A stretch of DNA of 64,000 bases from PVC group bacterium. GTDB lineage: Bacteria; Verrucomicrobiota; Kiritimatiellia; CAIKKV01. This document shows positions 42,475-48,683 of this stretch, piece by piece. Under the pieces are notes generated by a model. That model did no database searches. It was not told the origin of the DNA and worked only from the letters and a program-made list of their open reading frames with translations. The first letter of the stretch is position 1. Every line of letters begins with the position of its first letter. The stretch is taken from contig CAMDGM010000004.1 of the NCBI GenBank assembly GCA_945898015.1, forward strand, positions 1-64,000, in the 5' to 3' direction. The translations under genes were made by a program, and so were the position numbers.

Positions 42475-43839
42475 ATGAAAAGGTTGGCAGAACGGAATCT
42501 CCAGACTTGGTATCAGAACTCCGGGCACAAGCCCCTGGTGATCCGTGGGGCAAGGCAGGTCGGCAAGTCAACGCTTGTCCGTAATTTTGCGCGCGAGCAA
42601 GGCCTTGATCTGATCGAAGTCAATCTGGAGAGAAATCGCCGGCTCAATGACCTTTTTGCCACGCAGAAAATGGCGGATATCTGCAGGGAAATCGAGATCA
42701 TAGCCGACAAATCGCTGTCTCCCGCCGGTGGCAAACTCCTCTTTCTGGATGAAATCCAGGCGACACCGGCGGCTATTCCCTGTCTGCGCTACTTCTACGA
42801 GGACAGGCCAGACTTGCCCGTCGTCAGCGCCGGGTCGTTGTTAGAGTTCGTGCTGGCCAAGCATAGTTTCGAGATGCCTGTCGGCCGGGTGGAGTATCTA
42901 TTCCTCGGTCCGATGAGTTTTCAGGAGTATCTCCTGGCTCATGGTCAAAACCGGCTCCTTGACCTGATCGATGATTTCAAATGGGACGATACCTTCTCCG
43001 ATGCCGCACACGAGAAGCTGCTGACTACGCTCCGTGAGTTCCTCGTTGTCGGCGGCATGCCGGAAGCCGTACAGAAGTCCGTTGACGGGCAGGGTCTGAA
43101 CAAGGTGCTGGACGTTCAAGCCTCGATCTGTGAGACCTACCAGGACGATTTCGCCAAATATGCGCGCGACAGCCAACTGATCCTTCTCCAGAACCTCTTT
43201 CGGCATGTCCCGGTGAATGCCGGCGACAAGGTCAAGTATTCCAATATCGACCCCCACCGCCCCGCCCGGCAGGTGCGAGAGGCGATTGACCTCCTGGTCA
43301 AGGCGGGGATCTTTTATCGCGTGACGCATTCCGATGCGGCAGGCATGCCGCTGAATGCCAGGGTCAACCCCAAGTTGTTCAAACTCTATTTTCTGGATGT
43401 CGGTCTTCTGAATTTCCTCTGTGGCACCAAGTATATTGCCCCCGAAGCGATCAGGGCCATGGACTTCATCAACAAGGGCAACGTGGCGGAGCAATTCGTC
43501 GCCCAACACCTATTCTTCGCCGGCCGCGTGAACTGCGCGCCTGAGTTGTTCTACTGGCTGAGGGAAGGCAAGGCGGGGAATGCGGAGGTGGATTTTCTCG
43601 CCGCCGATGCGCAGGGAGTGCTGCCCCTCGAAGTGAAAGCCGGCCAAAGCGGCGCCCTTAAGTCGCTCCACCAGTTCGTCCTGCACAAGAAGGTCTCACG
43701 GGCGGTGCGGTATGACTTGAACAAACCCTCCCGGCAAACGGTTACCTGTTCCGTGTCTTGCGGTGCCGGCGCTACCCCCGTGGATTTCACGCTGACCTCA
43801 TTGCCGCTATACATGATTCATCGAACCGATCTCTGGTAG
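42475..43839 (+). CDS. AAA-family ATPase with DUF4143 domain
   Basis: 454 residues. Walker A VIRGARQVGKSTL (about residues 22-34), Walker B KLLFLDEIQATP near 88-98, then the DUF4143 region, with a restriction-nuclease-like PLEVKAGQSG near residue 384. Such proteins are common in accessory DNA of anaerobes; the role is unknown, possibly stress, defence or toxin-like. The ATG follows GAGGTGATCC. The gene is bounded on the right by the insertion sequence but appears intact. Confidence 0.85.
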   Translation: MKRLAERNLQTWYQNSGHKPLVIRGARQVGKSTLVRNFAREQGLDLIEVNLERNRRLNDLFATQKMADICREIEIIADKSLSPAGGKLLFLDEIQATPAAIPCLRYFYEDRPDLPVVSAGSLLEFVLAKHSFEMPVGRVEYLFLGPMSFQEYLLAHGQNRLLDLIDDFKWDDTFSDAAHEKLLTTLREFLVVGGMPEAVQKSVDGQGLNKVLDVQASICETYQDDFAKYARDSQLILLQNLFRHVPVNAGDKVKYSNIDPHRPARQVREAIDLLVKAGIFYRVTHSDAAGMPLNARVNPKLFKLYFLDVGLLNFLCGTKYIAPEAIRAMDFINKGNVAEQFVAQHLFFAGRVNCAPELFYWLREGKAGNAEVDFLAADAQGVLPLEVKAGQSGALKSLHQFVLHKKVSRAVRYDLNKPSRQTVTCSVSCGAGATPVDFTLTSLPLYMIHRTDLW

Positions 43840-43935: not shown

Positions 43936-43997
43936 CGCGGGCCAACGCCGGCGAGAACCGCACCGACCGGGGCTATGAAAAAATCCCTGAAAAAATA

Positions 43998-44032
43998 GTA
44001 ATAGTTTAGCGCGTTGAAGCGGCGGGGGCGGA
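43998..44032 (+). repeat. Left terminal inverted repeat of the IS
   Basis: 35 bases, identical in inverse orientation to 47450-47484. It is preceded by the target duplication aaaaaata. Confidence 0.95.
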
Positions 44033-44071
44033 AAGATTTTGATCGGGCGGCGGGGGCGCTCGATTTTTTTG

Positions 44072-44099
44072 TTGCATTCTTACCTAAGCATGATATAGT
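44072..44099 (+). promoter_or_regulatory. Candidate promoter of the small IS gene
   Basis: TTGCAT (44072-44077), 16-base spacer, TATAGT (44094-44099), ending 8 bases before the ATG at 44108. Confidence 0.5.
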
Positions 44100-44107
44100 G
44101 CATAGGC

Positions 44108-44449
44108 ATGAATGAACGGCTCGATTTTGAAGGATTGCTGGAGGAGCGCCGCCGGCTCTTGGCGCGATTGGGCGCCTGGCCGCCGGTCTTGCGCGGCTCG
44201 TTGCGCGAACACTTGGGCCGATGCGGCAACCCCACCTGCCGGTGCCATGCCAAGAAAAACCCTGTGCTTCATGGGCCGTATCGGTATCTGTCACACCGCT
44301 ACCAAAACCGGACCCAAACCATTTTGCTGACGAAAAGCAAGCTGCCGCATGCGCGGGCCGGCGTGGCCAACTACAAGCGCCTGATTGTTGCGAAAATCGC
44401 CGGTGAGTCCATTTTTCAGGTAAAAACGGGTGACGTTTTTGTTGGCTGA
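44108..44449 (+). CDS. Small IS-encoded Cys-rich protein (DUF6788-like)
   Basis: 113 residues. The middle segment CGNPTCRCHAKKNPVLHGPYRYL has three closely spaced Cys that could bind zinc. It resembles small proteins often found beside transposases and recorded as DUF6788; that link is from memory. It is convergent with, and overlaps by 34 bases, the end of the second transposase gene. Function is unknown; a DNA-binding accessory role in transposition is plausible. Confidence 0.65.
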   Translation: MNERLDFEGLLEERRRLLARLGAWPPVLRGSLREHLGRCGNPTCRCHAKKNPVLHGPYRYLSHRYQNRTQTILLTKSKLPHARAGVANYKRLIVAKIAGESIFQVKTGDVFVG

Positions 44450-45492
44450 ACGATCTTCATGAGGCCATTATCCTGTAACCATGCTTCGATCGCCTGACGC
44501 CGTGCGGCCTCCCTTGCACGACGGCTATCCTTTGGCATCTGGGCCACTATAGTCCTTGTCTGGTCTTCTATCCAGTTTTTTACCTCCTTTCTCCTATTGA
44601 GGGTGAAGTTCCGTAGGAACGCCTGATCGGAGTTGAAGAAGGTATACTCGGCGGTGTGACCATCGAGACACGGCCGGGGGTGCGCGTTGAGCAGGCTCGG
44701 GGCCGTCGCCAAGGCGGTGGTGATCGGCGTTCCAGCGAGCGTGAGCAGATCGACGGCGGCCTTGATTTCAAGTTGGGCGTATTCGATCGCGCCGTTGTAG
44801 CGGGGATAATAGGGTGGCGAGGTCAAGGCAAGGACCCCATAGTCGTCGAACACGCCATCAACCATCGCCTGCACCAGATTGCTGCCGTTGTCACGCTTCA
44901 TAACAAGCGGAGCGCCGAAGCGGTCGAACAGGAACTGCAACTGCATCGCGATCCGGGCCGCCGGCAGTTCCCACGCGACCAACAGGTCGAAGCGAAAGCG
45001 CGAGGCCAGGTCCCCCACGAGGTTCCAGAAGAGCCGGCCGTATTGGGCGGGATCCATGGCCCAGACCGCGCCCGGGTGAAGCCACACGAGGTGATAAAGA
45101 CTGGCCTGTTGATCGCGTTGGTGTTGCAGCCGGTGCTCCCGGACCCGGCGCGTAAACTCCCGCCGTGAGATGTCGGCTTGCCACTGTCGCCACAGGGCCG
45201 GGGCGCCCGGGCTGCGATGCACACCGTGGCGCAGGTCCGCGATGGCCTTGTCCAACGCCTCCGAGACGTGCTGCGCGGTCTTGCGGACGAACGGCTGGAC
45301 GGCCGTCTCCCCCCGACGAAGACGGCCGGACCAGCGCCGGACACTGGAACGCGACAGTTCCAGCGCCCGGCTCAGCCTTCGTTCCGACCAGCCCAGGCGG
45401 CCTTTCAACTCTTGGAGGATCTGCACCACGGTGCTCGCTGCCTTATTTTTTTTTGGCGCGGTCCTTACCCCCGGCCATCGTTTTCCACACAC
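44416..45492 (-). CDS. rve-type DDE transposase (second transposase of the IS)
   Basis: 358 residues from the track start; the true start may be slightly later because the first 50 bases overlap the upstream helix-turn-helix ORF. The N-terminus contains a helix-turn-helix (LGWSERRLSRALELSRSSVRRW). The catalytic triad is Asp in WAMDPAQYG, Asp in VMKRDNGSN and Glu in YNGAIEYAQL, with exactly 35 residues between the last two. The frame is open, so the enzyme may be active. Confidence 0.85.
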   Translation of the reverse strand: MCGKRWPGVRTAPKKNKAASTVVQILQELKGRLGWSERRLSRALELSRSSVRRWSGRLRRGETAVQPFVRKTAQHVSEALDKAIADLRHGVHRSPGAPALWRQWQADISRREFTRRVREHRLQHQRDQQASLYHLVWLHPGAVWAMDPAQYGRLFWNLVGDLASRFRFDLLVAWELPAARIAMQLQFLFDRFGAPLVMKRDNGSNLVQAMVDGVFDDYGVLALTSPPYYPRYNGAIEYAQLEIKAAVDLLTLAGTPITTALATAPSLLNAHPRPCLDGHTAEYTFFNSDQAFLRNFTLNRRKEVKNWIEDQTRTIVAQMPKDSRRAREAARRQAIEAWLQDNGLMKIVQPTKTSPVFT

Positions 45493-45757
45493 GCCACCGT
45501 TGCTCCAACAACAACACCTGTTGCTGGAGCTGCTGGTTCTGCGCCTGCATCTGCGCCAGCGGGCCGTCCCGCGTCGAGGGGGGGCGTCCGGCCTGGCCCG
45601 GACACAGTGCGCTGTGCATGCCCCGCAACGCCCGTGCCTCCCACTGGTAATACGTCTTGCGGGAGATCCCCAGGCGCTGGGCAGCCTGGGCCGCCGTCAG
45701 GCTCCCGGCCAACCGTTGCAGGATGACCGGCATCATCTGCTGTGGACTCGCGGGCAT
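45443..45757 (-). CDS. IS-encoded helix-turn-helix protein with coiled coil
   Basis: 104 residues. A helix-turn-helix LTAAQAAQRLGISRKTYYQW near residues 20-39 is followed by a Gln/Leu-rich heptad-like region that should form a coiled coil. It resembles OrfA-type DNA-binding subunits of two-component transposases. It is in the same frame as the preceding helix-turn-helix ORF, 30 bases further on. Confidence 0.7.
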   Translation of the reverse strand: MPASPQQMMPVILQRLAGSLTAAQAAQRLGISRKTYYQWEARALRGMHSALCPGQAGRPPSTRDGPLAQMQAQNQQLQQQVLLLEQRWRVWKTMAGGKDRAKKK

Positions 45758-47294
45758 GGTCGCTCCTTTCCGCCGGCGGCGTCACCGTCACGGCGCCGGC
45801 TTCTCCGACTCCGGCTTGGGCTTCGCGCCCAACCGGGCGAGCCGGCTGGTCAACCGCACGGCCTTGCGCTCCAGCAGCTTCTCCATGCGCGGCGGCAGCA
45901 TCGGCCCGCGCTCCTCCTGTCGGCGGCTCTGCGGCTCCAGCGCCTGCAGTATACCCTCCATGGCCCGTTCCTGCCAACCGCTCAGCAAGTTCGAGGGGAT
46001 GGCCAGCTCCCGGCAGATCTCCGAGGGCCTGCGCCGACCCGTCCATAACGCCAGCACCGCCTGGCACTTCTCCCGGGCGTTGTACACCCGGCGCTCCCGC
46101 TTCGGCTTCTCCGCTGCGTCCATCCCGACCTCCCGGCGCCTCCTGGCCGTCCACCAGGATGCGCACCTGTCCCCGATCCGCCTGCAACACCACGTTTTGC
46201 TCGCCCACCCGGCCCACCATGTAAAAGGGCGTCTGGGGCTTGCCCCGTAACGCCAGTTCCTTCACATTGGCTTCGACTCCCCGTTCCACCACCGCCCGCA
46301 CCTCTTTCTGGAGCGAGAAGTATCGGTCGGCCGGACAGAGCCCGTCGATGCCCTGATGGGGGCGTTGATGGTTGTAGTACTTCACCCAGTAGGCGATCCG
46401 TTCCTGAGCGTTCTCGAACGTATCGAACCGCGCCCGCTCCAGGAACTCCTCCCAGATCGTCTTCCAGAACCGCTCGATCTTCCCCAGCGTCATCGGGTGA
46501 TGCGGCGCGCTGCGGATGTGGTGGATCCGGTCCTTGGCCAGTTCCATCTGGAAGCGGGTTTTCCCTTTCCAGGCCGCATATTGCTTCCCGTTGTCCGTCA
46601 GCATCTCCTTCGGGATCCCATGATCGCCGACCGCCCGCCGATAGACTTCCATCACGTTCTCCGCCGTCTGGGATCGGCACACCCCGAGCCCCGTGATGTA
46701 GCGGGAGTGATCGTCGATGAACCCGATCAGGTAGCAGGCCTGCCCGTTCACCCGAAAGGTGAAGATGTCGCTCTGCCACATCTGGTTGGGCGTGGCCCGC
46801 TCGAAAAACCGCGGCTTCGGGGGATTCCTCCGGATTTTCCGCCGCACCGCCACCGGCATCGCCTGGTGCCGGTGCAGCGTCTGCCTCACAGTCTCCGCGC
46901 TGCCCGGAAGAAACAACGTCCGTCTCAGCCACTGGGCGATCTTGCGCACCCCGAAGGTGGGATGCTCTTGCTTAACGTCCATGATCGCCTGATGCACCGC
47001 CGCCGGTAATCGGGGTTTCCGCTTTCCGGCCTGGGCCTGGCGTGTGGCCAGCCCCGCATCGCCCGCCTGTTGATAACGCTCCACCCACTTGCGAAGCGTT
47101 GTGCCGGTCACCCCCAGTTCCTCGGACACGACCTCCAGGGGGATCCCTTCTTCCAGATGCAACTGCACCGCCTTGCGGCGCATCTCGACCGGGTGCGGGC
47201 TCGTGGATCGACCGCGTCTTTTCCCGCGCCGCTGTCCCGCCCCCCTCGGGGGGCGGGACACGCTCCCCGTCTTCTCACTGGCTATCCTGCTCAT
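45465..47294 (-). CDS. rve-type DDE transposase (first transposase of the IS) with long out-of-family tail
   Basis: The ATG at 47294 (MSRIASEKTGSV) is chosen, 8 bases after GGGAG. About 390 residues are recognisable: a helix-turn-helix (LEVVSEELGVTGTTLRKW), a second DNA-binding part, and the IS481-like catalytic core with Asp in WQSDIFTF, Asp in LTDNGKQY and Glu in GKIERFWK. The frame then stays open to 45465, but those last 220 residues overlap two helix-turn-helix ORFs in another frame and look like low-complexity read-through. Either a stop was lost, or a frameshift joins the core to the next ORF. Confidence 0.8.
   Translation of the reverse strand: MSRIASEKTGSVSRPPRGAGQRRGKRRGRSTSPHPVEMRRKAVQLHLEEGIPLEVVSEELGVTGTTLRKWVERYQQAGDAGLATRQAQAGKRKPRLPAAVHQAIMDVKQEHPTFGVRKIAQWLRRTLFLPGSAETVRQTLHRHQAMPVAVRRKIRRNPPKPRFFERATPNQMWQSDIFTFRVNGQACYLIGFIDDHSRYITGLGVCRSQTAENVMEVYRRAVGDHGIPKEMLTDNGKQYAAWKGKTRFQMELAKDRIHHIRSAPHHPMTLGKIERFWKTIWEEFLERARFDTFENAQERIAYWVKYYNHQRPHQGIDGLCPADRYFSLQKEVRAVVERGVEANVKELALRGKPQTPFYMVGRVGEQNVVLQADRGQVRILVDGQEAPGGRDGRSGEAEAGAPGVQRPGEVPGGAGVMDGSAQALGDLPGAGHPLELAERLAGTGHGGYTAGAGAAEPPTGGARADAAAAHGEAAGAQGRAVDQPARPVGREAQAGVGEAGAVTVTPPAERSDHARESTADDAGHPATVGREPDGGPGCPAPGDLPQDVLPVGGTGVAGHAQRTVSGPGRTPPLDAGRPAGADAGAEPAAPATGVVVGATVACVENDGRG
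45788..46123 (-). CDS. IS-encoded helix-turn-helix protein (IS3 OrfA-like)
   Basis: 111 residues, starting with ATG after GGAGGTCGGG. The region YNAREKCQAVLALWTGRRRPSEICRELAIP has the look of an IS3-family OrfA helix-turn-helix. The C-terminus is basic. It lies within the long downstream extension of the first transposase ORF but in a different frame; it is a likely true coding frame there. Confidence 0.68.
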   Translation of the reverse strand: MDAAEKPKRERRVYNAREKCQAVLALWTGRRRPSEICRELAIPSNLLSGWQERAMEGILQALEPQSRRQEERGPMLPPRMEKLLERKAVRLTSRLARLGAKPKPESEKPAP

Positions 47295-47449
47295 GGGTAA
47301 CACTCCCTTCACTCCAGAGTGTCACCCCTTTTCTACCTCAAACTGGACTCACCTCCCGGCGGCTGGCGCACCTCCAGAACCTCAATCCCTTGACCGTCCT
47401 CTTCCAACTGCTGGCCCACCCCGAAATCGTCGCCGCCGCCATCCTCTCG

Positions 47450-47484
47450 TCCGCCCCCGCCGCTTCAACGCGCTAAACTATTAC
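47450..47484 (-). repeat. Right terminal inverted repeat of the IS
   Basis: 35 bases, the exact inverse of 43998-44032, followed by the second target copy aaaaaata at 47485-47492. Confidence 0.95.
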
Positions 47485-47496
47485 AAAAAATATCTG

Positions 47497-47564: not shown

Positions 47565-48683
47565 GTGAAACTAGATTTCTTACAGCAGCGTGCCGAGGCG
47601 CCCGAGGTACAGATCACGCGTTTCTTACGCCGCCAGATCGTGACTGGCGCCTTCGATCCGGGTGAGCGCCTGCCGTCCACCAGCGAGCTCGCGCGCCGCT
47701 GGCGGGTCAGCAACAGCGTCATTCAGCGCGCGATCGAACCGCTTGCAGCCGAAGGGCTGATGGCGCGGCGTGCCGGTGTGGGAACGTTTATTCAACCCTC
47801 CACGGAGAAGGCATCGGTTGCCCTTGTTTTCGGGCCCTCGCTGGTGGAGGAGTCGGCGCATTTCTATCGCGCCATGCAGAGGGGGCTTCAGGAGGAAATT
47901 CGGACCCACTCCTGGTCATGCCGCGTCTATGAGGGGCTCAATCCTTCCCCGGATGTCGATGCCTCGCACATGAAGGACGTGGCGACCCACATCGAGCACG
48001 ACCTTCAGAACCATGCATTCAAAGGCCTCGTTCTCGTCGGCATGCACGTGAACCTCTCGAAACTGCTGGAACGGGATATCGACCTGCCCATTGTTGTCTG
48101 CCATGACGCGGTGGTGCAGGACAGCGCCGATTTTCTGCGAACGAGCGTCGTCTACCTGGCGCGGGACGGCCGTCGCCGGCTGGTTTTCCTGGAGTCGTGT
48201 TTGACGGACTTCGCGAGGGCGCCAGGTGACCCCGTACTGGAAGCGCTGCAAACCGCCGCGAAGAAACAGGGACTGCCTCCGGTCGACCGGGTGACGCTCC
48301 CGAGGCCGGGCTCCGCATTCGACAACGATACGGCGACGCAGCAGCGGACATTGGCGGCAATCGCGGCGTGGCGCGCCCGGCCCGAAGGCCTGCCGGACGG
48401 CCTGATCGTGAGCGACGACATCGCCATGCGCGGCGTGGCCTTTGGCCTGATGCGCTCCGGCGTCAACGTGCCCGAAGAGGTGAGGATCGTGACCCACGCG
48501 AACGATCGGGTGCGCATGAACTACGGCATCCCGGTCACGCGGTACGAGTTCCCCGTCGAAGAAACGGCGAAGCGAAGCGTCGAGATTCTGTGGAAGCGGA
48601 TTCTCAACGAACCTCTGCCGCCGCTGCCCATCGTGCTCAAGGGAACGATGCGGGAGGATGGCGGGCAGTGTGCGGTTGCCTGA
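47565..48683 (+). CDS. GntR-type HTH transcription regulator with LacI-like sensor domain
   Basis: 372 residues from a GTG, 8 bases after AGGAGG. The N-terminal winged helix (QIVTGAFDPGERLPSTSELARRW, residues 25-47) is GntR-type. The remainder matches the periplasmic-binding-protein fold of LacI/GalR sensors, with LVLVGMHVN and GLIVSDDIAMRGVAFGLM. Such AraR-like chimeras control sugar-use genes. It directly precedes the polysaccharide locus and is its likely local regulator; the effector is unknown. Confidence 0.85.
   Translation: MKLDFLQQRAEAPEVQITRFLRRQIVTGAFDPGERLPSTSELARRWRVSNSVIQRAIEPLAAEGLMARRAGVGTFIQPSTEKASVALVFGPSLVEESAHFYRAMQRGLQEEIRTHSWSCRVYEGLNPSPDVDASHMKDVATHIEHDLQNHAFKGLVLVGMHVNLSKLLERDIDLPIVVCHDAVVQDSADFLRTSVVYLARDGRRRLVFLESCLTDFARAPGDPVLEALQTAAKKQGLPPVDRVTLPRPGSAFDNDTATQQRTLAAIAAWRARPEGLPDGLIVSDDIAMRGVAFGLMRSGVNVPEEVRIVTHANDRVRMNYGIPVTRYEFPVEETAKRSVEILWKRILNEPLPPLPIVLKGTMREDGGQCAVA

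Follow-up and report, generated by a model that had tools for sequence, protein, structure and literature searches.

Two nested mobile elements at the locus

The locus raises the question of whether five genes enclosed by perfect inverted repeats constitute a single insertion sequence (IS) with two different transposases. The window analysed here is a stretch of 64,000 nt, and all coordinates are positions in it. In the first-pass annotation, the segment had been read as a 3.5-kb unit of two transposase genes, two helix-turn-helix (HTH) ORFs and a small Cys-rich gene that moved as one. Its 35-bp perfect inverted repeats and 8-bp target duplication are real and exact; they belong, together with the Cys-rich gene, to another element than the transposase genes do. 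The window contains two mobile elements, a four-gene element being nested in the relic of another one. Relatives were gathered from genomes of the same phylum and from GTDB genomes (41 loci from GTDB); the data are draft assemblies, mostly MAGs. The boundaries of both elements are as follows:

43990-43997, no strand: outer target duplication, left copy (8 bp, AAAAAATA)
43998-44032, plus strand: left arm (35 bp) of the perfect inverted repeat of the outer (probably IS66-like) relic; the same end, GTAATAGTTTAGC, is multi-copy in genomes G166 and G537
44108-44385, plus strand: DUF6788 accessory gene (PF20586) of the outer element, cut at residue 93
44386-47370, minus strand: inner four-gene, two-transposase insertion sequence, 2985 bp, with ends from comparison with about 25 relatives
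44386-44441, minus strand: inner terminal inverted repeat, B side (downstream of the gene)
47315-47370, minus strand: inner terminal inverted repeat, A side (upstream of the gene)
47371-47476, plus strand: what is left of the outer element's right end region, found again beside the GTAATAGTTTAGC end in G166
47450-47484, minus strand: right arm (35 bp) of the outer relic's perfect inverted repeat
47485-47492, no strand: outer target duplication, right copy (8 bp, AAAAAATA)

The two 35-bp arms are perfectly complementary, and AAAAAATA, an exact direct repeat of low complexity, abuts both of them. One pair of outer ends was found in the window's genome. The small Cys-containing ORF exists as annotated and was identified as Pfam DUF6788 (E 1.8e-20), but it is no part of the two-transposase element. 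Its Pfam match stops at residue 92, beside the inner boundary, and a DUF6788 relative is about 25 residues longer than this cut-off copy; thus, the window lacks the C-terminus of DUF6788 and the middle part of the outer element. Likewise, an outer-element stretch of G166 that is 78% identical to that of the window loses its similarity at 44385. We also considered a DUF6788 gene running across the inner element. Joining the flanks gave a continuous frame, yet the Pfam match was not lengthened, hence the flanks of the inner element are not contiguous DUF6788.

The outer unit is, in our reading, the deleted relic of another IS, probably an IS66-like one. No transposase gene is left in it, including IS66 TnpB/TnpC; in locus L162 a DUF6788 gene sits between IS66-like genes. 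The GTAATAGTTTAGC ends of the outer element also delimit a 134-bp MITE-like unit (L116, 3271-3404). In the window, the relic is neighboured by an AAA_14/DUF4143 ATPase gene (42475-43839) and by a gene for a GntR-type regulator with a periplasmic-binding-like domain (47565-48683).

Inside the 35-bp arms lies a second inverted pair with a 33-nt core (44402-44434 and 47321-47353, 76%) and full tips at 44386 and 47370. Throughout the inner family the ends consist of a TGTGC-type tip and an imperfect repeat of about 50 bp (about 55 bp in the window) followed by GGTRACACT, with a mean identity of 66% between the two ends of an element; in the group of L044, L046, L047, L049 and L058 the end pattern reads GGTTGACAC. 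Units of different genomes align at 75-90% identity over the whole 3 kb while their flanks are unrelated, and several contigs of relatives terminate at the inner tip, which places the inner element at 44386-47370. The window's genome carries a single copy of it.

Perfect repeats and an exact 8-bp duplication surround all five genes, as would be expected of one five-gene IS bounded by the 35-bp repeats. We nevertheless regard this reading as hardly credible, because A-D-C-B homologues elsewhere stop at the inner ends, because some genomes in which no A-D-C-B genes turned up carry the outer ends together with DUF6788 or the right-end sequence of the relic, and because DUF6788 is truncated at the inner tip. 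Of the suggestion that the five genes travel together, the part concerning A-D-C-B between the same ends was upheld, whereas DUF6788 was present at none of the other A-D-C-B loci. The case illustrates how, in nested elements, perfect outer repeats and a clean duplication can mislead element annotation.

Gene content and conservation of the inner element

The four genes of the inner element are all encoded on one strand:

46137-47294, minus strand: gene A, IS481-type DDE transposase (D176, D234, E274); conserved part, frame open to 45465
45788-46123, minus strand: gene D, the second OrfA-like HTH protein, lying over the C-terminal extension of A's open frame
45443-45757, minus strand: gene C, OrfA-like HTH protein (HTH_Tnp_1)
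44416-45492, minus strand: gene B, divergent retroviral-integrase-like DD(35)E transposase (D147, D201, E237); open frame extending back to 45696

These assignments agree with the earlier prediction of two rve-type transposases, one with D-35-E spacing (B), and two OrfA-like HTH ORFs. Protein A scored 240.2 bits with the NCBIfam IS481 model (cut-off 224) and 154.3 bits with the IS3 model (cut-off 160). The corresponding scores of protein B were 50.7 and 36.4 bits, and the window's B exceeded no NCBIfam family cut-off. A profile of B matched retroviral integrases, and its predicted fold (pLDDT 89.9) matched integrase cores. The proteins D and C are HTH proteins related to each other, and the Pfam scan of the inner genes revealed rve and HTH domains only. 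Recent duplication as the origin of A and B was rejected, BLASTP between them giving just 18.5 bits. The first-pass annotation had also allowed for one transposase gene being an IS of its own nested in the other; both turned out to be genes of the one inner element. A pair of adjacent ISs, each with its own transposase, was likewise discarded, as no second set of internal ends was seen within the inner element and B loci without an intact A are truncated or located at contig edges.

The catalytic triad of A was kept in all 33 proteins compared. In B, D201 and E237 were present in 39/39 sequences and D147 in 35/36. As judged from the sequences, A, D, C and B are all under purifying selection, with dN/dS values of 0-0.44 (eight pairs; one B comparison left out). 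Pairwise identities of A correlated with those of B (Mantel r 0.75, 0/2000 permutations).

These data bear on the possibility that A is the sole catalyst and that C-B, derived from a former IS3-like transposase, serves as regulator, target selector or inhibitor. A is the better conserved of the two and alone exceeds a curated family cut-off, and ISs normally use one transposase. The B triad, however, is kept in essentially all members despite large divergence, and B is under purifying selection and has a predicted integrase fold. Since the catalytic residues of B are kept, we consider a purely accessory role of C-B unlikely.

A conserved A run and overlapping frames

The overlap of genes C and B contains a run of A residues on the sense strand:

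45446-45454, minus strand: nine-A run where C and B overlap, a putative site of transcriptional slippage

A run was found at this place in all 32 testable elements (A8 in 20, A9 in 11 and A6 in one), and no other sense-strand run of at least eight A was detected in the 94.5 kb of element sequence. OrfAB of IS1447 arises from an A9 run through +1 transcriptional slippage (PMC6211511), and other IS genes are known to have A runs whose length varies (PMC1088944). With an A8 or A9 run in the C/B overlap of 31 of the 32 elements, the product of B is probably a C-B fusion protein that arises by slippage. The frame of B relative to that of C is usually -1 with A8 and +1 with A9, with exceptions. Mixed frame offsets of this kind are expected if the run length drifts under slippage; the imperfect match between run length and C/B frame offset nevertheless counts against the explanation that we favour below.

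A different kind of overlap exists between A and D. Across D, the frame of A contained 5 stops where 29.8 were expected after synonymous shuffling (window and 25 other loci). The controls behaved as expected, with 115 stops versus 108 expected in the third frame of D, and 47 versus 46, i.e. no depletion, in the frame of A across C. Consequently, a C-terminal tail of A seems to be overprinted on D.

Distribution and variants of the inner family

The order A-D-C-B between the same ends was found in about 30 genomes of several phyla, comprising Verrucomicrobiota/Lentisphaerae, Nitrospirae, Deltaproteobacteria, Acidobacteria, Planctomycetota and one gammaproteobacterium, and all loci that were not truncated had this gene order. 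Copy numbers per genome were low. In a sample of 195 genomes, B was always present in the host genome of full-length strong A matches, the exception being one partial A; loci with B only were fragments, cut short or lying at the edge of a contig. No B was found in plasmids, and phage records and viral contigs yielded no relative of B. This wide occurrence of A-D-C-B, with conservation of both active sites, supports the earlier proposal of a two-enzyme element that may represent a new family or a heteromeric system.

Some members deviated in structure. The L043 member (3407 bp) has an extra, third HTH gene between A and B, and in the closest relative (L025, 50-1648) A and D share one uninterrupted frame and thus form a fused A-D protein. 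Internally deleted derivatives of the inner family that kept both ends were observed in Victivallis genomes (L092, 331-1535 and 2809-4145; L093, 8132-9119), one of them adjoining an Rhs-repeat gene.

The two transposases could also have met in an ancient fusion of an IS481-like element with D and an IS3-like C-B element, of which only one set of ends remains, so that the second enzyme would be a passenger kept by chance or by its own mobility. A and B are not recent duplicates, and with D and C being related HTH proteins an OrfA of its own may originally have accompanied each transposase. We judge this scenario quite improbable in view of the same arrangement between the same ends across several phyla, of purifying selection on all genes, and of the lack of visible separate internal ends.

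Insertion sites of the inner element

No target duplication was detected in any of the 15 copies of the inner element with both flanks, which came from different genomes. The flanks of a copy were no more alike than mispaired flanks at lengths up to 40 bp, and there was no signal of palindromic targets. An empty site of the inner element was not found either. The sole relative found, G002, was tried as a candidate and dismissed, having the same left end at the same place. With neither a target duplication nor an empty site, a clean insertion event has not been seen, which counts against the favoured explanation.

The missing duplications may reflect adjacent deletions, recombination between copies or assembly joins rather than the mechanism of transposition. 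At several loci (L047 and the copies in L092 and L093) the flanks look like different genes, which makes adjacent deletion or recombination a live alternative, and the window's outer element has lost its middle. Both processes are documented causes for other ISs (PMC11708052). On the other side, a duplication signal above that of mispaired flanks was lacking in 15 of 15 copies of different genomes. Taken together, we give this explanation an even chance.

Proposed transposition mechanism

Element anatomy, ends, gene order, triads, A run, purifying selection and the absence of a duplication in the copies examined were read from sequence, and the steps below are proposed on this basis. All four genes would be co-transcribed from the A end. 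A would be translated as an IS481-type DDE transposase, while D and C, as small HTH proteins, may bind the ends and act in regulation. Slippage of RNA polymerase at the A8/A9 run would give a fraction of transcripts that encode a C-B fusion, equivalent to OrfAB of IS3. A and C-B would then form a single transposition complex that depends on both active sites, e.g. for different strands, ends or steps.

We favour, as a fairly probable reading of the locus, a nested pair in which an IS66-like relic surrounds a four-gene element whose transposition would jointly require A and C-B. The stronger proposal of a phylum-crossing IS family that needs the IS481-type A together with a slippage-made C-B and also inserts without target duplication is tentative, and we hold it to be somewhat doubtful.

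Comparison with known insertion sequences

To our knowledge, almost all bacterial ISs rely on a single enzyme. ISs are generally held to need one transposase, whereas the inner family keeps two dissimilar DDE enzymes with intact active sites across several phyla and shows no target duplication. It is a direct test case for how DDE active sites may divide their work and for the origin of target duplications. The inner element matched no named family in NCBIfam, and a two-DDE IS of its kind was not found in the literature searched. Judged against these two sources, the inner family is widespread but apparently undescribed.

The outer relic resembles the IS66 family in its GTAA ends and 8-bp duplication, a general-knowledge criterion which we take to point to IS66, so its family assignment is a presumptive one. 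Tn7-type heteromeric transposons have two catalytic proteins per element (TnsA and TnsB). In the inner element, both enzymes are DDE (rve) transposases, and the Pfam scan detected neither a TnsA-like nuclease nor an AAA+ partner.

With the IS481 family, the inner element shares the model score of protein A and, in most members, the TGT-type tips. IS481 elements have a single transposase and duplications of 2-15 bp (PMC10045372). The inner element differs in its size of about 3.0 kb, its four conserved genes and its second DDE enzyme, and no duplication of 2-15 bp was detected in the 15 copies, for which adjacent deletions are possible. With IS3 elements, especially IS1447, it shares the C-B arrangement, which resembles OrfA-OrfB in that an HTH protein precedes a DDE enzyme whose frame overlaps its own, with A8/A9 at the C/B overlap and a presumed fusion; an A run for slippage is likewise found in IS1447 (PMC6211511). 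The TG...CA tips are also alike. Unlike IS3 elements, the inner element has a B far under the IS3 cut-off, an extra full-length transposase (A) and an extra HTH gene (D), and the 3-5 bp target duplication of IS3 was not found in these copies. From its sequence, the inner element thus departs from both IS481 and IS3 in their defining features and appears to work in part like each of them.
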